From Ignavibacteriota bacterium (GTDB lineage: Bacteria; Bacteroidota; Ignavibacteria; UBA10030): 32,319 nt of DNA. Made by a program: the position numbers and the translations under genes. Of this stretch, positions 10,441 to 30,278 are shown one piece after another; the stretch's first letter is position 1; each line of letters starts with the position of its first letter. The notes below the pieces were generated by a model that was given only the letters and a program-made list of their open reading frames with translations, was not told where the DNA came from and ran no database searches. Location of the stretch: positions 1 to 32,319 of the forward strand of contig PMDB01000097.1 in NCBI GenBank assembly GCA_003155495.1, given 5' to 3'.

Positions 10441-10863
10441 ATGGATCAACCGGTACTTTCAGATAAAACACAATTTCCCACAGAAGAAATAATCTATTCG
10501 TATCTCGGGAAGGCCAAAAACATCTGGATTCCCTTTTTTGAATATCTTCGTGAGAACCATCCCGATATTACAACCGAGTGGCGGTATTATAATGACGGGA
10601 AAAACTGGCTGATGAAGGTTACACGGAAGAAAAAGACGGTTTTCTGGTTGTCTGTTCTGAAAGGAACTTTCAGAATTACTTTTTACTTTACCGACAGGGC
10701 GGCGAACGCTATCGCCGACAGTACCATTCCCACGGAAATGAAGAAACAGTTCAAGGAAGGAAAACGGTTTAATAAAATCCGGGGACTGACAGTCCTGTTC
10801 AAATCTAAAAAAGATATTGAATCTGCAAAAACATTATTATCAATAAAACTGAGCACTAAATAA
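10441..10863 (+). CDS. DUF3788 domain protein, paralogue 1
   Basis: A 140-aa soluble protein with the DUF3788 pattern: LSDKTQFPTEEII near the start, EWRYYNDGKNWLMKV and KKKTVFWLSV in the middle, FRITFYFTDRA, and a final KIRGLTVLF...SIKLS. The function of the family is unknown; it is often found near small DUF1801/YdhG-like and transcription-factor genes. A second copy at 20794-21216 has the same length and is about 80% identical by eye. This copy lies 54 bp past the broken membrane gene and has its own GGAG ribosome binding site. Confidence 0.85.
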   Translation: MDQPVLSDKTQFPTEEIIYSYLGKAKNIWIPFFEYLRENHPDITTEWRYYNDGKNWLMKVTRKKKTVFWLSVLKGTFRITFYFTDRAANAIADSTIPTEMKKQFKEGKRFNKIRGLTVLFKSKKDIESAKTLLSIKLSTK

Positions 10864-11487: not shown

Positions 11488-13521
11488 ATGCGTAAAAACA
11501 TTATTATCATAATTGCGGTTTCTATCGCTCTTCAATGGCAATCTCAGGTCTTGTATGCCCAAAGCTCAGGAGCCGATTCGATAATCTATTCAGACGATTT
11601 TGAAGCAGGACAGGGTTTGTGGCAGGTATCCAATGGATTGTGGAGTGTTGGAGAAGATGGAACTCTACCATCATACGTTTCGCGCCCGGGTAAGATGGCC
11701 GGAGGAGTGCTTGGTGGAGACGTCCCGCCAGGCGGATTTAATACATATTTCATTTCTCCGCCCATCGTACTACCATCAATAAATACAGATGAGGAACTTA
11801 GGGTCGGTTTTATACACTGGCATGACTTCAATGAATATGTCGCCGGTTGGGTCAGTGTACGAATTGATTCCGGTGGAGGAAAATACGGCAAGTGGGAACA
11901 AGTATCTGTCGAATATGAGAGCAATCTAAATTTTAATTATTGGAAAAATGCTTCGATCGTTATATCCAAATATATGGGAAAACGCATTAATGTTGGATTC
12001 CTACTTGTTGGTTTTACAGATTCTAGAGGTACCTCATCGGGACGTGGATGGCGTATTGATGATATGCGTATAGTAAAATCAAGGTTCAATATAAATACTC
12101 TACCGGTAGCATGGGACTTCGATCAGGATTGGAGTACTGAAACAAGTGCGAATAGTTGGTGGGATTCTTACGGATTATTTTGTGTCGGTAGAGATACTCT
12201 TGTAACCGCTCCAAGTCAGCCCAATTGTGCCGGAACAAACTTAAATATTTCCACTGTTCCCAGAACAGGTTTTTCCGTCTATTTGGCTTCCCCAAGCGTT
12301 CAGATTCCCGTTATGGCAGGGGCAGATGATATTATTTTCCGATTCCGTTACTATCTCGACCGCAATAAATATTTAGTAGGACAATCGGTTATTGCCGAAG
12401 ATTCTGGAAATGGAAATTGGGGATCATGGAAGGTTTTGGCGCAATATACAACGTCCACACAATGGACAAGGGTACCGATTACTCTTCCGGTAAGTTATCA
12501 AGGAAAAACAGTACGATTTGGCTTCGCTCTCATCGGTTGGACAGATTCTTTGGGAGGTCCAAGTGGAAAAGGATTTTATATAGACGATGTCGATTTGTTC
12601 TCCACTGCCACACATGTTACAGCACCGCAACTTGTGATCCCCAAGAATAGTTCAATCGCAATTGGAACGAATCCAACATTCCGTTGGCGGTTAGTAGCTT
12701 CTGCATTTAATTATCGAATTCAAGTTTCAAAAAATCCATCATTTGCCACAACATTGCTTGATTCTTCTGATATCGAACCGACTTCATATATATCTACAAA
12801 AGATCTTTCGGACACTGCAGGCGTTTATTATTGGCGTGTGTGTGCAACGAATGGATTAGGAGCAAGTGCGTGGTCGAATGTATGGCATTTTAATTCCGAA
12901 TTCACTAAAAATGTTACAGCACCGCAGCTCGTATTCCCTACTAATGGCTCAATCGCAATTGGAACGAAACCAACATTTCGTTGGCAGATAGCAGCATCTG
13001 CATTTAATTATCGAATTCAAGTTTCAAAAGACTCAATATTTGCCACAACAATACTCGATTCTTCTGAAATCGAACCGACTTCATATACATCTACAAAAGA
13101 CCTTCCGGATACCGTCAGTACATATTATTGGCGTGTATGTGCAACGAATGGATTAGGAACGAGTGTGTGGTCGGTTGTATGGCATTTTCATTCCGGTTTA
13201 ACTGAAGTAAAGGAAATAACTGCATTACAACCTAAAGTCTTTTCACTCCAGCAAAATTACCCAAACCCCTTTAATCCATCGACAAGGATTTCCTTTGATC
13301 TTCCGTCAAAATCATTCGTATCACTTAAAATATTTGATTTGATAGGAAGAGAAGTGGCAACACTTGTGTCCGAAGAGTTATCTGCCGGCAGCTATGCGAA
13401 GCAATGGAATGCAACGAGGTTGCCAAGCGGCGTTTATTTTTATCGGTTACAGGCTCGCCAAACATCCGGCGGGCAAACCGGATCATTTATAGACACAAAA
13501 AAACTTATTTTGTTGAAATAA
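11488..13521 (+). CDS. Secreted multidomain protein with two beta-sandwich modules, two FN3-like repeats and a T9SS sorting domain
   Basis: The 677-aa protein has a signal peptide (about 1-25, ending LYAQS). Two related modules follow (about 33-195 and 203-370), each starting with a D-F-[ED]...W segment and ending in G-x-G-[WF]-x-I-D-D, like MAM/concanavalin-type beta-sandwich domains common in Bacteroidota surface proteins. Residues 376-474 and 475-573 are two fibronectin-III-like repeats of 99 residues with YYWRVCATNGLG, nearly identical in sequence. The tail from about 588 is a type A sorting domain (QNYPNPFNPSTRISFDLP...SGVYFYRLQ). No catalytic motif is seen, so it is probably an adhesin or structural surface protein. 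An AGGAGG site 8 nt upstream fixes ATG 11488. Confidence 0.85.
   Translation: MRKNIIIIIAVSIALQWQSQVLYAQSSGADSIIYSDDFEAGQGLWQVSNGLWSVGEDGTLPSYVSRPGKMAGGVLGGDVPPGGFNTYFISPPIVLPSINTDEELRVGFIHWHDFNEYVAGWVSVRIDSGGGKYGKWEQVSVEYESNLNFNYWKNASIVISKYMGKRINVGFLLVGFTDSRGTSSGRGWRIDDMRIVKSRFNINTLPVAWDFDQDWSTETSANSWWDSYGLFCVGRDTLVTAPSQPNCAGTNLNISTVPRTGFSVYLASPSVQIPVMAGADDIIFRFRYYLDRNKYLVGQSVIAEDSGNGNWGSWKVLAQYTTSTQWTRVPITLPVSYQGKTVRFGFALIGWTDSLGGPSGKGFYIDDVDLFSTATHVTAPQLVIPKNSSIAIGTNPTFRWRLVASAFNYRIQVSKNPSFATTLLDSSDIEPTSYISTKDLSDTAGVYYWRVCATNGLGASAWSNVWHFNSEFTKNVTAPQLVFPTNGSIAIGTKPTFRWQIAASAFNYRIQVSKDSIFATTILDSSEIEPTSYTSTKDLPDTVSTYYWRVCATNGLGTSVWSVVWHFHSGLTEVKEITALQPKVFSLQQNYPNPFNPSTRISFDLPSKSFVSLKIFDLIGREVATLVSEELSAGSYAKQWNATRLPSGVYFYRLQARQTSGGQTGSFIDTKKLILLK
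12615..13205 (+). repeat. 297-bp tandem duplication inside the T9SS protein gene
   Basis: Two direct units, 12615-12911 and 12912-13205, each encode one FN3-like repeat. They are still similar at DNA level, sharing for example ACAGCACCGCA and long runs around ATTTAATTATCGAATTC. This points to a fairly recent internal duplication. Confidence 0.85.
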
Positions 13522-13602: not shown

Positions 13603-14070
13603 TTATACACGCAATTGTTATTTGCATATCGTCTCAACTGTTCACGTACCCGACATGTTTTACGGCGGGTAGACTCTTTTTAATTACCATCTCAACTACT
13701 TATCGACTCTGCGCCGGAGGCGCATCCGCCTTTGGCGGAATAAACTCACAGACTCCCTGGCTTCCCTGCTCATCTATTCAATGACGTCCAACTGATAACT
13801 ATTTACTATTCACTCTTTACTCTTTGCCGCTTTAATCCTCCTTGCTTCTCAAACCAAAAAATCCTACACTTTACTCAAATGGTTCCCATCCTTCCTGATT
13901 TTTAGGGAATTGCTTCATCACTCTTCACGGAGAGTGCATTTTTTTAAAACTTGGTGATACAATGGCAAACAATACCAACAAGATAAATGCAACGTGACAC
14001 ATTGCCCTCCCCCTTGTGAGTAAAAACGACATATGTCATAATTTATGTAGTTTGGTGCAATGCAGCCGTC
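13574..14070 (+). repeat. Composite upstream repeat, copy 3 (longest)
   Basis: Modules in order: the GGGGCGA hairpin; TATACACGCAATTG and CGTCTCAACTG; and two adjacent perfect hairpins, TGCGCC-GGA-GGCGCA (13710-13724) and TCCGCC-TTT-GGCGGA (13725-13739). Then come TTTACTATTCACT (13802-13814), CCTTGCTTCTC (13840), CCTACACTTTACTC and GGTTCCCATCCTTCCTGA. The second part, with GACATATGTC near 14030, parallels the region before 11488. The stretch 13522-14115 contains no gene I can support. The DUF6869-like gene starts at 14116. Confidence 0.75.
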
Positions 14071-19998: not shown

Positions 19999-20170
19999 TG
20001 CGAAAGCACTTCGCCCCTACGAATGGGCTTGATACCCGCCCAATAAGACGGCGGATAATAATCAAGCCCCTACTTACAAACACGCCACTGTTCACTCTTC
20101 ACTGTTTACTATTTACCATTCACTGTTTACCCTTCACAGTTTACTATTCACTCTTTACCATTCACTCTTC
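19999..20170. repeat. Nested palindromes and TTTACTATTCACT micro-repeats
   Basis: A decayed GCGAAAGCACTTCGCCCCTAC palindrome (20000-20020) is followed by a nested hairpin: GGGCTTGAT (20025-20033) with ATCAAGCCC (20061-20069), and CCGCC/GGCGG inside it. Positions 20085-20170 hold about ten degenerate copies of a 7-10 nt unit like TTCACTGTTTAC or TTTACTATTCACT. The stretch lies between convergent genes (DUF1801 and the HTH gene). Confidence 0.65.
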
Positions 20171-20175
20171 ACAAG

Positions 20176-20646: not shown

Positions 20647-20662
20647 ATGTCAAATTTGACAT
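20647..20662. promoter_or_regulatory. Perfect 16-bp palindrome ATGTCAAATTTGACAT
   Basis: The sequence is its own reverse complement and is followed by another TGTCAA at 20665. It lies between the minus-strand HTH gene and the plus-strand DUF3788 gene, so it could be an operator. It is 163 bp from the HTH start and 132 bp from the DUF3788 start; its target is unknown. Confidence 0.4.
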
Positions 20663-20678
20663 ACTGTCAAGACCCAAC

Positions 20679-20786
20679 GGGCGAAACCACTTCGCCCCTA
20701 CGACTCTTTACTCTTCACTGTTCACTATTCACCGCTTTTACTTCCTTGCTTCTCTTTTCAAAAACTCCTACACTTTGTTCAGGAGG
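20679..20786 (+). repeat. Composite upstream repeat, copy 4 (runs into the ribosome binding site)
   Basis: A GGGCGAA/TTCGCCC hairpin (20679-20685 and 20691-20697) is followed by CTCTTCACTGTTCACTATTC, CCTTGCTTCTC (20744) and CTCCTACACTTTGTTC. It ends at AGGAGG (20781-20786), the Shine-Dalgarno of the DUF3788 gene. It is the shortest of the four copies and lacks the GGTTCCCATCC block. Confidence 0.7.
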
Positions 20787-20793
20787 AATGAAC

Positions 20794-21216
20794 ATGGACC
20801 AACCGGTACTATCCGATAAAACACAATTTCCCACCGAAGAAATAATCTTTTCGCATCTCGGAAAAACTAAGGATATCTGGATAGCTTTTTTTGAATATCT
20901 TCATGAGAACCATCCCGACATTATTCCAGAGTGGCGGTATTACAACGACGGGAAAAGCTGGCTGATGAAGAATACACGGAAGAAAAAGACGGTCTTCTGG
21001 TTGTCTGTTCAAAAAGGATTTTTCAGAACCACTTTTTACTTTACCGACAGAGCAGCAAAAGCAATTGCGGGCAGCAGCATTCCCGTGGAAATGAAAAAGC
21101 AGTTCAAGGAAGGAAAACAGTACGGTAAAATCCGGGGGCTGACGGTTTTATTTAAGTATAAAAAAGATATCGAGACTGCCAAAGCGCTCTTAGCAATTAA
21201 ATTGAGCATTAAATAA
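20794..21216 (+). CDS. DUF3788 domain protein, paralogue 2
   Basis: A 140-aa protein of the same length as the 10441-10863 product, about 80% identical by eye, and sharing its first 18 residues (MDQPVLSDKTQFPTEEII). It keeps the family core: EWRYYNDGKSWLMKN, KKKTVFWLSVQKG, TFYFTDRAAKAIA and KIRGLTVLFKYKKD. The start is ATG 20794, 7 nt after AGGAGG; an ATG at 20788 is too close to that site. It is preceded by composite repeat copy 4 and followed, after 127 bp, by the 801-aa nuclease-like gene. Confidence 0.85.
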   Translation: MDQPVLSDKTQFPTEEIIFSHLGKTKDIWIAFFEYLHENHPDIIPEWRYYNDGKSWLMKNTRKKKTVFWLSVQKGFFRTTFYFTDRAAKAIAGSSIPVEMKKQFKEGKQYGKIRGLTVLFKYKKDIETAKALLAIKLSIK

Positions 21217-21343: not shown

Positions 21344-23749
21344 ATGTCATCAACAAGACTTGAAATCACGCTTCGGCCACTCAAATTTGCTTTGATTGTT
21401 AATCCACATGATCAAAAATCAATTCTCGAAGCAATTCAATTGAACAGTTTTTTATGGGGTGGAACCTACAATCTAATCATTCCAAAGTTCAATAAAATCC
21501 CTAAAAATTGGGAACATCCGCTCAGTAAGAGCCAGACGGCTTCTTCTATATTTGCCGGGTACGTAGATAATTTCGATCCTGATTTTCTAGTTCCAATCCG
21601 ACTTGATGATTTCGACAAATCCTCTTTTGCAAATCGCAGGATTGTCTCACTAAATGAAATAGTCAGTGGAGCCCGCAGTAGTGGAATCCCCGGTATGGGT
21701 GTAGGACTTTTTGAAATTCTACGTTCATTTATTAGATCAGAGTTAAAATATATCCGGAAGGATCCTCTGCACTTTAGAATCCCAGAGCATAATGGCAAAT
21801 ACAAATTGTTTTTCTCTAGTGTTTTCGGAACTCTCGCACCTGATCAATCTGATTTCTTTCACAAACATTTCGATAAGGAATTGAATGCAGAATGGTTAGA
21901 ATGTGACTTCTCTAACTTTGCAACCTTCTTTAAGGGGGATAATCTCTTTCTCAGACGTCTCACAAGTCATCAACTGAAAGTAAACAGACACAATGGATGG
22001 AATCGAGGCATCTGTATTTTTCACTTTGACGCAACGAAAACACTTGATATAATCGATTACTGGAATCTACGAGCAATAGGTTGGGATGTAATGCCAGTTC
22101 CAATCCAAGCTGATCTGACAGGTGATCTTAAAGAGAGCACCCTCTCATTTATCAAGGAGAATTACATACAAGATCGCAATAATCCGAATATCTATCACAA
22201 TGTGTCATTGATAAAGAGCAGATCACTTAGCGATGAAGACACAAAATCTTTCGTTGAAGCATTAGATTTACCTAAACCATTGTCCCCGCATAGAAGTTAC
22301 ATAAACTATCTCTCTTATCCTCGAATGTGGGATGAGTGGGCACGTAGCCGTGATGGAGTGGAATGTTGTGATTTGGAAGCAGGAAAATCAAAAACTGAGC
22401 TTCCTGACACACAGCAAGAACTCAGTTTTACAACGGTAGATCCAAAGTTCATGTTGACCAACATACACTCTGCCGAGCCTCGTTTCGCCAATAAAGTTGA
22501 AATACGGACATATGGCGATCGAGAACTTGTTGCAGAGGTTATCCCAGAATGTGACAACACCATGACTTCGGCCATTGGTGGTTTTGGAATTCGAGAATGG
22601 CGATTTGCAAAGAAATCCATTGTGTATCTATCTCACTATCGAGATTGGTCAGTGAATTTACGTCAGCCTCTTGCGGAGAAAGTTATTTCAGCATGGCTGA
22701 AAACGAAGAACGTGGAAACGACTCTTTCTCCTGCGGGATTAATAGCAAAACAAATGCTTTTTCAACTTAAAGGCACATTTGGAATAAATTGGCTTTCCAA
22801 CGAATTACTTGTTCAATTTCTTATCAAGATGTCTAACGGCAAATCTATACTGAAAGATACCTTCTTTGCAGAATTCGGCAAGATTGCTCAAGCAGAAAAA
22901 TACAAATCCGATGTTAAAAGGATGCTTGAGGGTCTCATGAAGACCGAAATGTTTCGTCTTGGGTTCGAGCTCCAATGTCCCACATGCACCCAATTCTCTT
23001 GGTATTCCATAGAAGTCATCAGATATCAGGTGCAATGCGAAAAATGTCTCTCGAAGTTTGACATTCCATCTCATTCGCCTAACGACATAAAATGGTCGTA
23101 TAGAACATTCGGACCATTCAGCTTGCCTAGTCAATCAGTCGGAGTCTATCCTGTTTTATTAACTCTAAGATTCTTTGCTCGCGTACTTGATGGGGCTACT
23201 ACTCCTCTTTTATCATCTGAATTTCGTCATCTTAATGGTATTATTGAAGTTGACCTTACCCTTCTTTTCCGCGAGTCAAGATTCTGGAATGACAAAACTG
23301 AAATGATATTTTGTGAATGCAAGGCATATAACAAATTTGAAAAGAATGACATCAACCGGTTGAGAGTGCTTGCGCGTCAATTTCCTGGTGCTTTTCTTGT
23401 TCTCAGCACATTCCGTAAGAGTCTAACAGACTCAGAGAAAAGATTGGTGCGCGGCCTTGCTAGTACTGGCAGAAAATACTGGAAGGCCGACCGCCCATAT
23501 AATCCTGTTCTCATTTTAACTGGAACTGAGTTGTTTTCGAATTGGGGTCCACCATCTTGTTGGAAGGATGCAGGCGGATCCCATGCTGTCTTTGCAGAGA
23601 AACAGCAAGCTTGGCAAGACTTGTTATCTCTCTGCGATGCAACTCAACAGCTATACTTGGATATGAAACCTTGGCATGAGTGGCTACAAGAACAGTGGAA
23701 TAAACGTTCGATCTCAAAGCATGCTGTAGAACCAGAAGCAACTATTTAA
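21344..23749 (+). CDS. 801-aa protein with zinc ribbon and C-terminal PD-(D/E)XK nuclease signature; candidate defence protein
   Basis: I do not recognise the full-length family. The N-terminus (residues 10-80) has LRPLKFALIVNPHD, SILEAIQLNSFLWGGTYNLIIP and DNFDPDFLVPI, a compact alpha/beta domain reminiscent of ligand-sensing or nucleotide-binding domains. Residues 420-540 are mainly helical. Four cysteines, Cys545, Cys548, Cys565 and Cys568 (CPTC...CEKC), form a zinc ribbon. Residues 631-695 fit a PD-(D/E)XK nuclease: Asp637 in IIEVDLTLLF, then Glu658-Cys-Lys660 in MIFCECKAY, and a strand FLVLSTF. No helicase, methylase or ATPase motif is visible. It stands alone between repeat-rich spacers and is not part of an evident multigene system. 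The start has a weak ribosome binding site. Confidence 0.6.
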   Translation: MSSTRLEITLRPLKFALIVNPHDQKSILEAIQLNSFLWGGTYNLIIPKFNKIPKNWEHPLSKSQTASSIFAGYVDNFDPDFLVPIRLDDFDKSSFANRRIVSLNEIVSGARSSGIPGMGVGLFEILRSFIRSELKYIRKDPLHFRIPEHNGKYKLFFSSVFGTLAPDQSDFFHKHFDKELNAEWLECDFSNFATFFKGDNLFLRRLTSHQLKVNRHNGWNRGICIFHFDATKTLDIIDYWNLRAIGWDVMPVPIQADLTGDLKESTLSFIKENYIQDRNNPNIYHNVSLIKSRSLSDEDTKSFVEALDLPKPLSPHRSYINYLSYPRMWDEWARSRDGVECCDLEAGKSKTELPDTQQELSFTTVDPKFMLTNIHSAEPRFANKVEIRTYGDRELVAEVIPECDNTMTSAIGGFGIREWRFAKKSIVYLSHYRDWSVNLRQPLAEKVISAWLKTKNVETTLSPAGLIAKQMLFQLKGTFGINWLSNELLVQFLIKMSNGKSILKDTFFAEFGKIAQAEKYKSDVKRMLEGLMKTEMFRLGFELQCPTCTQFSWYSIEVIRYQVQCEKCLSKFDIPSHSPNDIKWSYRTFGPFSLPSQSVGVYPVLLTLRFFARVLDGATTPLLSSEFRHLNGIIEVDLTLLFRESRFWNDKTEMIFCECKAYNKFEKNDINRLRVLARQFPGAFLVLSTFRKSLTDSEKRLVRGLASTGRKYWKADRPYNPVLILTGTELFSNWGPPSCWKDAGGSHAVFAEKQQAWQDLLSLCDATQQLYLDMKPWHEWLQEQWNKRSISKHAVEPEATI

Positions 23750-24083
23750 GAGCATGTGTACAACTTCACATAGCGCACACAAAAATGCTGTACACAATTA
23801 TCTATATAAAATCCAACACCCTACAGCTTCACTCCTCCTAACCTCAGCGAGTTCGTCACTACACTTTAAGATTGTAGATTTAAGATGGTAGAAGGTAGAA
23901 TAATGACTTATGCCTTATTAAATTCTTTTATACAAGCCCGCGAAATCGATAGAAGTAAGCTGGGCTAAAGCAAGAGAGTACTTATTATATCCGATTGATA
24001 CCTTCTAAACACATTGCTCATTATATCCTGAATCCGAACTCCACCTTGCGATAACACATTTCGATTTCGCTGGTGTTTCTTTC
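23750..24083. repeat. Gene-free stretch with 3'-end repeat family copy 2
   Basis: CTACAG...CTAACCTCAGCGAGTT...CACTACACTT (23821-23864) matches 6739-6781 and 31381-31427. It continues with GATTTAAGATGGTAG, also shared with 31447-31463. An AGCCCGCG...GCTGGGCT pairing follows (23935-23968). No supported gene. Confidence 0.55.
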
Positions 24084-24270
24084 TGTCGCTTTCTTTGCAC
24101 ATTCAAAGAAAGCGACGAAAAATTTTTTATAAATATTCTCAGACATGGATACCACACCAGAATCATCCGGGTATTACGATTTCCCTGGGGAGTCTTTTCT
24201 GTCCGGGCGCAATGCATTGCGCCCCTACAAAAGAATCGATGACGGCAAAACATCGCCTTTGAGCATGCCC
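24084..24270 (+). repeat. Long dispersed repeat, copy A, with 13-bp hairpin
   Basis: A perfect hairpin GTCGCTTTCTTTG (24084-24096) / CAAAGAAAGCGAC (24103-24115) is followed by GAAAAATTTTTT. Next come about 75 bp shared with 31870-31943 (TATTCTCAGACATGGATA... CCAGAATCATCCGG). A GGGCGCAATGCATTGCGCCC palindrome (24207-24226) with CTACAAAAGAA closes the core, followed by GATGACGGCAAA...CATCGCC. By eye the two copies are roughly 90% identical over about 150 bp. Confidence 0.75.
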
Positions 24271-24546: not shown

Positions 24547-27500
24547 TTACTCCCGATGCGAGATTTGCTCTGAATGTTCCTTCGCTTCGTGTTCTAAATT
24601 CTTTAATCCTTCCTTGCTGTAGGCAATCCGGGTTATCGTAACAAACAACACGGGGACGATGAATATAGCCAGCATCGTCGCCGCCAGCATCCCGCCAAGC
24701 ACAGTCCAGCCGATAGTGGATCTCGCCTGGGCACCGGCGCCTGCAGCAAACGCCAGCGGTGAAACACCGAGAATAAATGCCATGGACGTCATAAGAATGG
24801 GGCGCAGTCTCAGCTTCACCGCTTCAAGTGTCGCTTCGATCAGGTTCATCCCGTTGTCGACCCGTGCTTTTCCGAATTCCACAATAAGGATTGCGTTCTT
24901 TGCCGCCAGCCCGATCAATGTGATCAATCCGATCTGCGCGTAGATGTTGTTGCTCAGGTGCGGAAGAAACGTGAGCGTCAGAATGGCGCCGAACGCACCG
25001 ATAGGGACTGCAAGGAGGACCGCGAAAGGAACGGACCAGCTTTCATACAGCGCCGTCAGAAACAGGAACACAAAAACGATGGATAGAATAAATATTGTTG
25101 TCGTACTGCTGCCGGCATTAATTTCTTCGCGGCTGAGTCCAGAAAATTCGTACCCGTACCCGGCAGGAAGAACATCCGCCGCCACTTCGCGCAGCGCCTC
25201 AATCGCCTGTCCGCTGCTGTATCCTTCTCCCGCGCTGCCGTTGATCTCTGCCGTGCGGAATAAATTGTAGTGTGTAATGAGCGGAGCGTTTTCGACAACT
25301 TTATAACTGATCAGCGTTCCGAGCGGGATCATCATTCCTGATGAGTTCTTCACGTAATACTTGGACAGGTTTTGAATATTCGTCCGGAAGGAAGTGTCCG
25401 CCTGCGCCACCACATGGAAATTCCGTCCGTAGATCGTGAAATCGTTCACGTAACGGCTGCCGAGGTACGTCTGAAGCGTTGAATAAACATCTGATATGGA
25501 AAGTCCCAGCTTCTTGCACTTTTCCCTATCGACATCCACTTGATATCCCGGCGTGTGCGCGCTGAAGAAAGAGAACACGCGGCTGAGTTCGGGGCGTTTA
25601 TTCGCCGCCGCTACAAATGTCTGCACGGTTTTTTCAAATTGTTTGATGTCGTCCGTGCTTTCGTGCTGCTCGAGTTCGAATGTGAAGCCGCCCGTTTGCC
25701 CGAGGCCGGGAATTGCCGGAGGCGAGATGACGATGACGTTCGCGCTTTTGATGGCGGAGAATTTCTGCTGCAATGTTGCGATCAGCGAACTCAATTGCAG
25801 TGACTGCTCTTTCCGGTCGTCCCATTGTTTCAATTGGACGAAAATGGTGCCGCTGTTCGATTTGGTGGCAAACGTTACCACATTCAATCCGCCCAGCGCA
25901 GCGAAGTGGGCAATGCCCGGCGTCTCTTGAAGGATGCCCATCATCGTGTTCAACACATCAAGGCTTCTGGTTGTCGATGAAGCTTCAGGCAATTCAAATG
26001 TGACGTACAACCGTCCTTCATCTTCCGTTGGAATGAAACCGGTCGGCTTGCTTTTGAACAGTATCGCAGTCCCTAAGTAGAGAATGGCAAGCAGGATGAG
26101 TGCGTACTTAGCCAAACGAATCCATGTTTTAACGCTGTTGGTATAAGAATTCGTTGTCCTCTCAAACCATTCGTTGAAGCGGAGGAAGAACTTATTCAAA
26201 CCTTTCGCCTTGACGCCAACACGCGATGGTTTTAAAAGAAGAGTGCACAGAGCCGGCGTCAACGACAATGCAACGAAAGCCGAAATGAGAACCGAAATCG
26301 CTATCGTGATGGCGAACTGCTGATACAAGCGTCCGACGATACCGGGAATGAATCCCACCGGGATGAAAACCGCAGCGAGGATTAAAGCTATGGCGACAAC
26401 GGGCCCTGAAATATCCTGCATTGCCTTGATCGTTGCTTCCTTCGGAGAAAATTTTTCCCGGTCGATATAATGCTGTGTCGCCTCGACAACAATGATGGCG
26501 TCGTCCACGACAATGCCGATCGCCAGGACGAAGCCGAACATAGTCAACGTGTTGATCGTGAAGCCCAGCGGAACAAAAAAAGCAAACGTCCCGATAAGCG
26601 AAACGGGAATCGCCAGCACCGGAATGAGAGTCGCACGCCAGCTTTGAAGGAACAGGAAGACGACGAGCACAACCAGTCCAAGAGCCTCGATCAACGTCAG
26701 GACGACTTCTTCGATCGACACTTTCACTACAGAGACTGCTTCAAACGGCACGACGTAGTCGACATCCTTAGGAAAGGATTTCTTCAAAGTTTCCATCGCT
26801 TTGTAGATTCCGCCCGCAACATCGAGAGCATTGCTCCCCGGCGCCTGAAAGACCAGGAGATATGATGCGCGCTTCCCATCGACAAAGGAATTGTTGGCAT
26901 AACTGAATTTGCCGAGTTGTACGCGGGCAACATCGTGCAGATGAACGGCAGAACCCTCACGGGGATTCGATTGAATGATGATATTACCGAACTGCTCTTC
27001 AGAATTTAATCGGCTGTTCGTGAACACCGTATACTCAAATGCCTGCGCATCCTTCTGCGGAGGAGCTCCGACAGAGCCGGCAGCAATCTGCAAATTCTGT
27101 TCGGCGAGAGCGTTGATAACATCATTCGTAGTCAATCCCCGCTGTGCGAGACGATCGGGAGAGAGCCAGACGCGCATGCTGAAATCATCGGCACGCGTAA
27201 AAATATCGCCGACACCGGAAACCCGCAGCAGCGCATCCCGGATAAAGATATTCGTATAGTTATCGACGAATGTGACACCGTGCGTGCCATCGGGTGAATA
27301 GATGGCGACAAGCATCAGAATGCTTGGACTGCGTTTCCTCGTCGTCAAGCCGAGACGCTTGACGTCATCGGGGAGCTGCGGCGTGGCAATTCCGACACGG
27401 TTCTGGATATCGAGCGCGGCAATATCCGGATTGGTACCGACATTCAGGGTGACATTGATCGTCGTTCTGCCGTCGCTCGTACTGTTTCCCTGCATATATG

Positions 27501-27729
27501 CCATGCCGGGGGTACCGTTGACCTGCGATTCAATCGGTGTCGTGACAGTTTGCTCGACGGTCTGGGCATCCGCACCGTTGAACGAGCCGGAGATCTGAAC
27601 AGTCGGCGGAGTGATGTCCGGATACTGGCTGACAGGAAGCTTGGAGATCGAGAGAAGCCCGACAAGAACAATAACAATGGAAATAACAATTGCAGTGATG
27701 GGCCTTCGAATAAACGTATTAGCGATCAT
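24547..27729 (-). CDS. RND multidrug efflux transporter, HAE1 (AcrB/MexB) family
   Basis: The 1060-aa protein is full length for AcrB-type inner-membrane pumps. It begins MIANTFIRRPITAIVISI (TM1) and continues SKLPVSQYPDITPPTVQIS. The proton-relay pair Asp409/Asp410 is in GIVVDDAIIVVE (TM4), and the TM10 lysine is in AAKNAILIVEF (near 943). Two large periplasmic loops and twelve membrane spans fit the family. It takes substrates from periplasm or membrane and exports them with proton influx, together with the adaptor and TolC proteins encoded just upstream. It is the last gene of the operon, 18 bp after the adaptor gene. Substrates cannot be predicted. Confidence 0.95.
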   Translation of the reverse strand: MIANTFIRRPITAIVISIVIVLVGLLSISKLPVSQYPDITPPTVQISGSFNGADAQTVEQTVTTPIESQVNGTPGMAYMQGNSTSDGRTTINVTLNVGTNPDIAALDIQNRVGIATPQLPDDVKRLGLTTRKRSPSILMLVAIYSPDGTHGVTFVDNYTNIFIRDALLRVSGVGDIFTRADDFSMRVWLSPDRLAQRGLTTNDVINALAEQNLQIAAGSVGAPPQKDAQAFEYTVFTNSRLNSEEQFGNIIIQSNPREGSAVHLHDVARVQLGKFSYANNSFVDGKRASYLLVFQAPGSNALDVAGGIYKAMETLKKSFPKDVDYVVPFEAVSVVKVSIEEVVLTLIEALGLVVLVVFLFLQSWRATLIPVLAIPVSLIGTFAFFVPLGFTINTLTMFGFVLAIGIVVDDAIIVVEATQHYIDREKFSPKEATIKAMQDISGPVVAIALILAAVFIPVGFIPGIVGRLYQQFAITIAISVLISAFVALSLTPALCTLLLKPSRVGVKAKGLNKFFLRFNEWFERTTNSYTNSVKTWIRLAKYALILLAILYLGTAILFKSKPTGFIPTEDEGRLYVTFELPEASSTTRSLDVLNTMMGILQETPGIAHFAALGGLNVVTFATKSNSGTIFVQLKQWDDRKEQSLQLSSLIATLQQKFSAIKSANVIVISPPAIPGLGQTGGFTFELEQHESTDDIKQFEKTVQTFVAAANKRPELSRVFSFFSAHTPGYQVDVDREKCKKLGLSISDVYSTLQTYLGSRYVNDFTIYGRNFHVVAQADTSFRTNIQNLSKYYVKNSSGMMIPLGTLISYKVVENAPLITHYNLFRTAEINGSAGEGYSSGQAIEALREVAADVLPAGYGYEFSGLSREEINAGSSTTTIFILSIVFVFLFLTALYESWSVPFAVLLAVPIGAFGAILTLTFLPHLSNNIYAQIGLITLIGLAAKNAILIVEFGKARVDNGMNLIEATLEAVKLRLRPILMTSMAFILGVSPLAFAAGAGAQARSTIGWTVLGGMLAATMLAIFIVPVLFVTITRIAYSKEGLKNLEHEAKEHSEQISHRE

Positions 27730-27747
27730 CGGTTTCTTACCAGACCG

Positions 27748-28890
27748 TTATTTGCTATATCCGGGTTTGGAAACCGGCGGCATTCCTGCAGATGCTACCG
27801 CAACGAGCGCGTTCTCTCTCAAACGCTGCATCCCATCGGTCACAATTTGATCGCCGGGCTGCAATCCATCTTTCACGACAACCATATCGTTAATATTCAT
27901 GCCGAGCGTTACCCTGTGTTGTATTGCCCTGTTCTCTTTGACTGCAAAGACAAAATACTCCCCCATTTGCTCAATCACCGCTTTATACGGGATGAGCATT
28001 GCAGTGGAACCAGTGGCCGCCTGAATACGAAGGTTGCACGTCAATCCGGGCTTGAGGATTTTCTTCGAGTTGGGAAAAATAACCCTGACCCGAATTGTTC
28101 CTGTTTGGAAATCAACAGACCGATCGAGGAAACTCAGCCTGCCGGAAGATGTATAGAATGACTGATCCGGGAGAACGATCGTGAACGTTGAGTCTATCCC
28201 GTTGTCGCTGCTCTGGAGCAGGGTGTTGAAACGGCTAATCTGTTTTTCATCCACCGCACAATCGACGGCGATTGGATCGTCAGAAGATATGGTATTCAAT
28301 ACCGTCTGGCCTATTGTCACAGCAGATCCCCGCTTCACTTGCGATATCCCGATTGTCCCATCGAACGGAGCATGAATCACAGAGTAGAGCAGATTTGTTT
28401 CTGCGCTCTTGACTGATGCTTCTGCTGCTGCAACTTGCATTTTTGATGATTCGAGATCGTCAACTGCATGTTCAAGCGTTTGCCGCGCGACGGCATCATA
28501 CTTCGCAAGATCCCTGTATCGATCTGCATCTTGCTGCGCTTTGGCGAGATTCGCTTTGGCAACATTCAGGTTCGCCCGCACCTGATCATACGTCGCCTGG
28601 TATTGTTGTTGATCGATAGCATAAAGTCGAATTCCTTTTGTGACATGCTGCCCGTCCTGAACAAAAATTTCGGTGATGTATCCGGACACTTCCGGCCTGA
28701 GATCGACCTGATTCAAGGCGACAACCGTAGCCGGGTACTCGTCAAAGTACGCCGCGCTGCCTGTCTTTACTTCAGTGGTAGCGACCTGAATAAGCGGAGG
28801 CCCCTTTTGTTCCGCCGCTTTGTTCACACTGCAGGAAGTGAGCAATACCGAGATGATAAGGATTGCGGTAACAATGATGATGTTTTTCAT
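27748..28890 (-). CDS. RND efflux periplasmic adaptor lipoprotein (membrane fusion protein)
   Basis: The 380-aa protein has a lipobox LLTSC (Cys20) for lipid anchoring. A beta-barrel/lipoyl start follows (VATTEVKTGSAAYFDEYPATVVALNQVDLRPEVSGYI), then a helical hairpin with repeated A-K-A-N-L type heptads (about 100-165). The second lipoyl half (VIHAPFDGTIGISQVKRGSAVTIGQ) and the barrel and membrane-proximal domains ending GDQIVTDGMQRLREN come last. It joins the RND pump to the TolC protein. It lies between them on the minus strand, 20 bp after the TolC gene. A CAGGA site precedes the ATG. Confidence 0.95.
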   Translation of the reverse strand: MKNIIIVTAILIISVLLTSCSVNKAAEQKGPPLIQVATTEVKTGSAAYFDEYPATVVALNQVDLRPEVSGYITEIFVQDGQHVTKGIRLYAIDQQQYQATYDQVRANLNVAKANLAKAQQDADRYRDLAKYDAVARQTLEHAVDDLESSKMQVAAAEASVKSAETNLLYSVIHAPFDGTIGISQVKRGSAVTIGQTVLNTISSDDPIAVDCAVDEKQISRFNTLLQSSDNGIDSTFTIVLPDQSFYTSSGRLSFLDRSVDFQTGTIRVRVIFPNSKKILKPGLTCNLRIQAATGSTAMLIPYKAVIEQMGEYFVFAVKENRAIQHRVTLGMNINDMVVVKDGLQPGDQIVTDGMQRLRENALVAVASAGMPPVSKPGYSK

Positions 28891-28910
28891 AGTGAATGAT
28901 CCTGAAATTG

Positions 28911-30248
28911 TTAATAAGATATTGTGCCGAGTGCTTTCTGCATATCAAGCTTGCTGACAAGCAGTTGATACATGGCGTTGGTCTGATTGACCTGGGCAGA
29001 CCGGAGGTCCGTTTCTGCCGTGATGAATTCGAGATACGATTTTGTTCCGGCTTTGTATTGAAGCTGGATGGTCCGGTAGACATCCTGGGCGAGTTGAAGG
29101 TTGTCGCTCAACACCTTATAGTTGTTCAAATTGCTCTTGTAATTTGCCAAAGCCAGTGCATATTGTGTATTGATACTGTTCTCAAGTGAAAGTACGTCGT
29201 AGTCGACGCGGTCAAGCTGCAGTTTCGCCTGTTTTATTTGTTGGATCCTTTTCCCTCCCTCAAACAGAGGAAACGAAAGCTCAAGGCCAACGAACGAGTA
29301 CGGGTAACGTTGATTGTAGAGCGGGTCGATGAAACTGTTTTGATAGTTGATCGTGTATCCGCCATAAAGGCTGAGAGATGGGATAAAGCTCCATTTATAA
29401 TAATTCAGATTGTCTTCCTGAAGGTGCATTTGAGTCTGCAGGAGTTGGAATTCAATCCTGTTGTCATAATTGAGCGACCCGCTCGTATCGAAAAAAGCTT
29501 CACGCACCATCTGTGTGCTGTCATAGTCGAGATCCAGATTTGCTGCATTAGGATATCCCATCTGTTCCTTAAGATTGGCGACGCGTGCTTTCAAGAGTTC
29601 CCCCGCCTGTTGCCTGTCGGCCTTGGCATTGTTCAATGCGATCTGAGCCCGCATATAATCCGTCTTATCGACGATGCCGCCCTGGTACTTTGTGTGGGCA
29701 TCCTTGGAGCTTTGTTCAAGCCGCAGAATCGCCTCGTCAAGCAATTCAATCTGCTGTATCGTCACCAACGTCGCATAATAGGCATTGCTCACATTGACAA
29801 CAACATCGATCTTGGTACTCAGTGTTCTCTGTTTGGCAAATGTACGTACATCGCTTGCGCTGGTACTGGCGAGCAGAACGTCTTTATTGAACAACGTCTG
29901 TGTTGCTGTGAATTGAATGTTGGAGTTGTTTGCCAATCCTTGATTTATAGGAACGCCCCCTACAATTGCCACCGGAATTTGAGGATTATGCTGCACGTTG
30001 AAGTTTAGGTTCAGTTGAGGAAACCAGTCAGCCAGCTTTCCCTGTATGGTGCGTTCAGCAATTTCCTCATCCACGAGCGACTCTTGCACCAATGGTTGGT
30101 GCACCAGCGCATAGCGGATACAGTTCTGAAGAGTTCTACGTTCCAGCAATGAGTCGAACGCCTGTTGCGATTGAGCTGCCATTGTTGAATACAACAACAC
30201 GAGAATTAAAAACAACATTCTTCGTATAATAATGTTTCTTCTTTTCAT
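28911..30248 (-). CDS. TolC-family outer-membrane efflux protein
   Basis: A protein of about 445 residues with a signal peptide (MLFLILVLLYSTMAAQSQQ) and two repeats of long helices with an OEP-type pattern: LQNCIRYALVHQPLVQE, LLDEAILRLEQSSKDAHTKYQGGIVDKTDYMRAQIALNNAKA, then LSLYGGYTINYQ, and YRTIQLQYKAGTKSYLEFITAETDLRSAQ. It forms the trimeric channel through the outer membrane and periplasm for the pump. First gene of the three-gene unit; the order TolC, adaptor, pump is common in Bacteroidota. ATG 30248 is preferred over an upstream TTG at 30278; ATG 30218 is also possible. No repressor gene is adjacent. Confidence 0.9.
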   Translation of the reverse strand: MKRRNIIIRRMLFLILVLLYSTMAAQSQQAFDSLLERRTLQNCIRYALVHQPLVQESLVDEEIAERTIQGKLADWFPQLNLNFNVQHNPQIPVAIVGGVPINQGLANNSNIQFTATQTLFNKDVLLASTSASDVRTFAKQRTLSTKIDVVVNVSNAYYATLVTIQQIELLDEAILRLEQSSKDAHTKYQGGIVDKTDYMRAQIALNNAKADRQQAGELLKARVANLKEQMGYPNAANLDLDYDSTQMVREAFFDTSGSLNYDNRIEFQLLQTQMHLQEDNLNYYKWSFIPSLSLYGGYTINYQNSFIDPLYNQRYPYSFVGLELSFPLFEGGKRIQQIKQAKLQLDRVDYDVLSLENSINTQYALALANYKSNLNNYKVLSDNLQLAQDVYRTIQLQYKAGTKSYLEFITAETDLRSAQVNQTNAMYQLLVSKLDMQKALGTISY

Positions 30249-30278
30249 CAGTAGATAGTTTATAGATATTCTAAGCAA

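Follow-up and report, generated by a model that had tools for sequence, protein, structure and literature searches.

Can2 and Card1 nucleases are known as switches that are thrown by the cyclic oligoadenylates (cOA) of type III CRISPR systems. In these proteins and in Cdn1, all cOA-activated type III CRISPR nucleases (DUF1887, PF09002), a Rossmann-type N-terminal part is followed by a nuclease, an order that recurs in the protein described here, P0001. In Can2 and Cdn1 the chain rearranges once a ligand is bound in the Rossmann part, and in Cdn1 the nuclease halves are thereby paired as well (PMC7969007, PMC12825302). What happens when such a nuclease half is found behind a different front half? 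We analysed a stretch of 32,319 nucleotides from an Ignavibacteriota bacterium (contig PMDB01000097.1), hereafter the window, in which P0001 is encoded. On balance we favour the view of P0001 as a horizontally transferred conflict nuclease that works on its own, most likely against phage, with its N-terminal module as the sensor.

P0001 is read from a single frame with an ATG start and a stop codon at 23747-23749 (Table 1). An earlier note on this DNA had proposed the 801-residue frame as a single-gene unit with an unknown N-terminal domain, and this description stands: the plus-strand frame is intact, full members of the family nearly always consist of one open reading frame of about 760-860 residues, and P0001 has no match in Pfam and none among PADLOC 2.0.0 families, both searched at E up to 1. 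The residues that it named, Asp637 and Glu658-x-Lys660, are found at these positions, as are the CxxC...CxxC of residues 545-568 and the N-terminal motif block NSFLWGGTYNLIIP at residues 34-47. It overlooked E635, a further acidic residue two positions before D637, with which the motif becomes E-x-D...E-x-K. In an alignment of 66 sequences C545, C548, C565, C568, E635, D637, E658 and K660 are all invariant, and the string C..C..C..C-E.D-E.K, with its four cysteines, is kept in 70/70 full-length homologue frames, a set that counts at least one contig twice (as L088 and L091); conservation on this scale exceeds chance. Conserved positions of the N-terminal module are W38-G39-G40, P44, D80, G162, D235 and W240-N-L-R243. 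The last of these is invariant as well, which is partly built into the collection scan, keyed as it was on the W240-N-L-R243 pattern, and it is also seen in relatives found without that pattern. From the order of its elements in the prediction, the helical segment of residues ~480-536 appears winged-helix-like.

Table 1. Features of P0001, of its neighbours in the window and of selected homologue loci.
Feature	Position	Strand	Basis
P0001 open reading frame, single open frame, 801 aa	21344..23749	+	Frame reading; full-length homologues
Two-lobed Rossmann-like N-terminal module (predicted), residues ~14-330	21383..22333	+	AlphaFold models; conservation
Beta-rich linker segment (predicted), residues ~331-440, poorly conserved	22334..22663	+	AlphaFold models
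Can2/Card1/Cdn1-like C-terminal half (predicted), residues 446-766	22679..23641	+	Structure searches
Helical segment, residues ~480-536	22781..22951	+	Predicted secondary structure
Cys4 zinc ribbon CxxC-x16-CxxC, residues 545-568	22976..23047	+	Invariant Cys; weak zinc-ribbon model matches in homologues
Catalytic E635-V-D637 ... E658-C-K660, residues 635-660	23246..23323	+	Alignment invariance; profile alignment
DUF3788 gene, upstream neighbour, not part of the system	20647..21216	+	Pfam; on other contigs in congeners
RND efflux operon (AcrB, HlyD, OEP), downstream neighbour	24547..30278	-	Pfam; congener comparison
AlbA_2/HATPase proteins at homologue loci	L020:2746-3960, L030:4743-5711, L032:701-2200, L038:12445-13995, L079:6882-7829

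An AlphaFold model of full-length P0001, built on the family alignment, reached a mean pLDDT of 89 and a pTM of 0.89. In this predicted structure D637 and E658/K660 lie on neighbouring strands (632-643 and 653-660), as in the PD-(D/E)XK core. Foldseek with the model returned Cdn1 (9u49) at E 3.1e-6 as its sole match below 0.001, and the top ranks in VIA-align were Card1, Cdn1, Can2 and Can1 (Z 11.1-9.7), mostly across residues 446-766. VC1899 (1xmx) aligned with Z 9.3. The nuclease half also aligns to MspJI, EndoMS, FokI and the small subunit of BspD6I with Z 6-9, and the scores of the Can2 group (9-11) exceed those of most other restriction enzymes. That the C-terminal half of P0001 has a PD-(D/E)XK nuclease fold is near certain, as the earlier note had surmised from the letters, and the core is present in a predicted structure that aligns to FokI, EndoMS, MspJI, BspD6I and Card1 alike. 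The closest structural kin of the modelled domain is the nuclease half of Can2/Card1/Cdn1, an assignment more specific than the one first proposed. In a profile-profile alignment against Card1_endonuc reading frames (six rows fetched from the phylum, of which one is short and spurious), E635-x-D637 falls on E-x-D and E658-x-K660 on E-C-K (E-x-K). The alignment in catalytic register has P 1.2e-4 for one comparison, with a modest probability of 55%. The active-site pair mutated in Can2 is E276/D278 (PMC7969007), the same E-x-D pattern as E635/D637, with E635 as the counterpart of the glutamate in that pair. As part of the view stated at the outset, and with the same slight leaning in its favour, we propose that the back half of P0001 is a metal-dependent, DNA- or RNA-cutting nuclease built like Can2/Card1, to which a Cys4 zinc ribbon has been added. 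A fold search of BFVD gave one match below 0.001, S5M4M0, an uncharacterised protein of 274 residues from Bacillus phage JL (Foldseek E 1.2e-5), which could be a phage relative of one P0001 domain.

How, then, does the front half compare? Folded alone, residues 1-440 give a compact model (pLDDT 89.5, pTM 0.92), in which residues 13-311 form two Rossmann-like lobes. The best structural matches of this module are C. difficile Cwp6/SLPL with Z ~8, a level common for unrelated folds, and the role of the module as a sensor, possibly of a ligand, is for this reason a guess. The N-terminal profile did not align with the CARF portion of Can2-family sequences (P 0.25). CARF and SAVED chains are absent among the listed structural matches of the N-terminal model, an absence from a list that excludes nothing. 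As predicted, the module is compact, two-lobed and not recognisably CARF.

P0001 might nonetheless be a true cyclic-nucleotide effector, its lobes forming a pocket of diverged, tandem CARF/SAVED-like type for a cyclic oligonucleotide that Cas10 or a CD-NTase produces elsewhere in the cell, as in Can1 with its two CARF domains in one chain. The Can1/Can2/Card1 fold of the C-terminal half speaks for this, as do the two Rossmann-like lobes in one chain, reminiscent of Can1, and a strong match to the Cas10 palm in 6/50 homologue-bearing genomes. SMODS exceeded its cut-off in four others of the 50, with no overlap between the two groups, and 40/50 had neither; many of these genomes are incomplete MAGs, so that a missing Cas10 or cyclase match in them is no firm negative, and the cyclase test covered SMODS only, which a cyclase too diverged for that model would escape. 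Weaker palm matches, mostly at model positions ~57-132, are by inference ordinary GGDEF domains. The query genome, 97% complete, contains no match to SMODS and none to the Cas10 palm. With both lacking from its own genome and from 40 of the 50, dependence of P0001 on CRISPR or CBASS is unlikely. Neither cyclase nor CRISPR genes are among the families listed for neighbours of the homologues, and together with the failure of the N-terminal profile to align to the CARF part of the Can2 family this makes a cyclic-nucleotide effector, to our minds, quite improbable. In Methylobacter tundripaludum the homologue locus L018 may lie ~22 kb from a Cas10 gene (G445:C1:482516-482923), provided that C1 is the contig of L018.

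The family to which P0001 belongs is real and conserved: rare, unnamed and scattered over many bacterial phyla. A set of diverse members gave only faint, sub-threshold scores in NCBIfam and Pfam, mostly to zinc-ribbon models; none of ten homologues matched PF09002 (Card1_endonuc) with E up to 0.1, and a sequence search of solved structures with the family profiles yielded no credible match. In a GTDB collection of 84,980 genomes we found 90 loci in at least 14 phyla, a lower bound, given that the scan was keyed on one peptide pattern. Carriers include Poribacteria, Chloroflexota, Acidobacteriota, Pseudomonadota, Planctomycetota, CPR lineages, Bacteroidota and others. Within the phylum sample, matches occurred in 6/395 genomes, that of the query included, and four of these six were full length. 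Full-length relatives reside on Photobacterium and Bradyrhizobium plasmids, and two copies were found on IMG/VR contigs; the phage records searched held none, and blastn with two enterobacterial members detected no copy in E. coli. A homologue search of 60 related genomes (five of the same genus, its own genome aside) was negative. The patchy distribution expected of an accessory gene is borne out by a family that reaches at least 14 phyla yet is absent from these 60 relatives. In the tree the query groups beside members from Acidobacteriota, Poribacteria and Chloroflexota, outside the single Bacteroidota clade, with a best identity of 43%. This placement, drawn from sequence, fits transfer between phyla, of which a tree alone is no proof.

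Are homologues of P0001 accompanied by defence genes? In a set of 259 of their neighbours Pfam recognised R-M methylases, helicases (ResIII and SNF2), HsdR, GmrSD and Mrr, as well as genes of conjugative elements. One plasmid copy adjoins YhaV/PrlF toxin-antitoxin genes, with an abortive-infection protein close by. Two neighbour sets of ~130 proteins each matched 271 and 270 PADLOC families (families, not proteins, are counted), versus 124 for 130 control proteins taken at contig starts in the same set of genomes, one of which starts happened to include type I R-M genes. The enrichment of defence genes near homologues is thus modest, about two-fold against a small control. An all-against-all BLAST of 867 neighbour reading frames revealed no recurring partner gene, apart from helicases that cluster loosely across 13 loci. 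The alternative that the earlier note had raised against its own proposal, homologues always next to housekeeping genes, is not what these loci look like: no fixed set of housekeeping genes goes with the homologues.

At two divergent outgroup loci (L082:667-12298 and L077:1257-12322) a relative of P0001 is accompanied by an HmaB-like methylase, a small reading frame and an HmaA/DrmD/BrxH-like SNF2 helicase; together they possibly constitute a distinct helicase-methylase-nuclease system. An IetS-like protein is encoded upstream of the set in L082. Such a neighbourhood, in which the relative sits as a nuclease partner would, lends weight to a second alternative, that P0001 is a restriction or DNA-processing nuclease akin to type IV restriction enzymes, not gated by a ligand, which reads DNA modification or structure through the winged-helix-like segment, the zinc ribbon and the N-terminal module. 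The matches of the nuclease half to MspJI, EndoMS, FokI and BspD6I (Z 6-9) and the zinc ribbon adjoining it would suit such an enzyme. Against it, the main subfamily has no recurring methylase or helicase partner, and, a weaker point, no solved modified-base reader appears in the Foldseek top list for the N-terminus. We regard this alternative as unlikely. No link between P0001 and PIWI-RE or CoCoNuTs was found in this analysis. An AlbA_2/HATPase (RecG-C-like) protein is encoded near the nuclease gene in five loci of the family (Table 1). The one in L079 matched PADLOC pAgo models; an Argonaute/APAZ partner was considered and rejected, its kin at the four other loci looking like AlbA_2/HATPase proteins.

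Some copies adjoin genes typical of Bacteroidetes conjugative elements (DUF1896, DUF4099, DUF3945, topoisomerase, RteC). P0001 could accordingly be a nuclease of mobile elements rather than of defence, acting in element stability, in competition with other plasmids or in DNA processing during transfer, and its presence on plasmids and its absence from the congeners of the query agree with such a role. However, the scanned neighbours of most copies show no recurring transfer genes, and defence genes travel on such elements too; we give this possibility little credence.

Within the window P0001 does not lie in a defence island: it is surrounded by metabolic or transport genes (RibD_C, YCII, DUF3788 and an RND efflux operon), and, as the earlier note remarked, neither a methylase nor a helicase accompanies it there. 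In two congeners the RND operon is 89-97% identical, and P0001 is absent from those genomes. Unrelated genes occupy the space beside the operon in a congener (G078), and this stretch is therefore variable. The repeat-rich spacers once cited as typical of variable loci are indeed present, but they are dispersed across genomes of the genus and not specific to P0001. Within the window they lie at 20077-20172, 20686-20739, 13781-13834 and 23810-24121, and comprise 14-base TTCACTCTTTACCA-type units as well as hairpins such as GTCGCTTTCTTTG/CAAAGAAAGCGAC near 24085-24130; some of those elsewhere in the genus are near integron integrase genes. An integron integrase exceeds the family cut-off (TIGR02249, 390-454 bits) in 4/5 congeners (G395, G397, G078 and G398; loci L144-L147 and L150), and none does so in the query's own genome. 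We rejected an integron cassette: the spacers around P0001 have no attC-like site, and the whole window has no more of them than shuffled sequence. The DUF3788 genes at 10441-10863 and 20647-21216, 10 kb apart, are ~84% identical over 300 bases, and such small genes seem to move, given their relatives on other contigs in congeners. At 11488-13521 the window also encodes a 677-residue protein that bears a C-terminal signal for type IX secretion; 297 bases of its frame are duplicated in tandem (12614-13195).

Taking together the frame and its conservation, the predicted fold, the active-site register, the patchy distribution and the lack of a required cyclase, we infer that a role of P0001 in defence is likely; sensing, an off-state and the substrate belong to the proposal that follows. 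On the model of Can2, Card1 and Cdn1, P0001 would probably be off by default, its nuclease under control of the N-terminal half. Release might come when the N-terminal module binds something; this could be a small molecule that fits the cleft separating the two lobes, or a product made by the phage. The nuclease halves would then pair and cut nucleic acid, and phage growth would be stopped or the cell shut down. The same nuclease half behind a different conserved front half, with most carriers devoid of a cyclase, would mean that the effector module has been reused under another trigger. A bolder generalisation, which we put forward tentatively and think somewhat less probable than its negation, is that of a widespread, CRISPR-independent family of single-protein immune nucleases, built from a Can2/Card1 nuclease module and a new two-lobed Rossmann sensor. 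If true, the effector module is paired with a non-CARF sensor, and the infection signal derives from neither Cas10 nor a CD-NTase. The invariant N-terminal block (W38-G-G, D80, D235, W240-N-L-R243) offers a direct handle on the trigger. Pipelines built on Pfam, NCBIfam and PADLOC would miss the family, since tested members have no model there.

Among known systems, those of Hma type or resembling DISARM are approached only by the outgroup loci L082 and L077, where helicase and methylase adjoin; the query and the main subfamily have no such partners. Can1 (6sce), a monomeric nuclease with two CARF domains, shares with P0001, as predicted, two Rossmann-type lobes and a C-terminal active PD-(D/E)XK domain in one chain, and aligns over 166 residues with Z 9.7. 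Can1, however, alternates CARF and nuclease-like domains, whereas P0001 has both lobes first and one nuclease domain. VC1899, an orphan DUF1887 protein whose activator is uncharacterised (PMC7969007), also joins a Rossmann part to a Can2-type nuclease, but is an ordinary DUF1887 protein of 380 residues. Unlike Can2 and Card1, P0001 has no Pfam match and is not tied to Cas10; a PF09002 match and an association with CRISPR (Cas10) were both sought and neither was found, and for this reason P0001 should not be filed as Can2. It is twice as long as Can2/Card1/Cdn1 (801 versus ~370-430 residues), and differs from them in its two-lobed N-terminus, not recognisable as CARF, and in the added Cys4 zinc ribbon. 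With these nucleases P0001 shares the predicted fold of residues 446-766 (Z ~10-11; Foldseek E 3e-6 to Cdn1) and E-x-D...E-x-K in register, and in type it would be a sensor-plus-nuclease effector.
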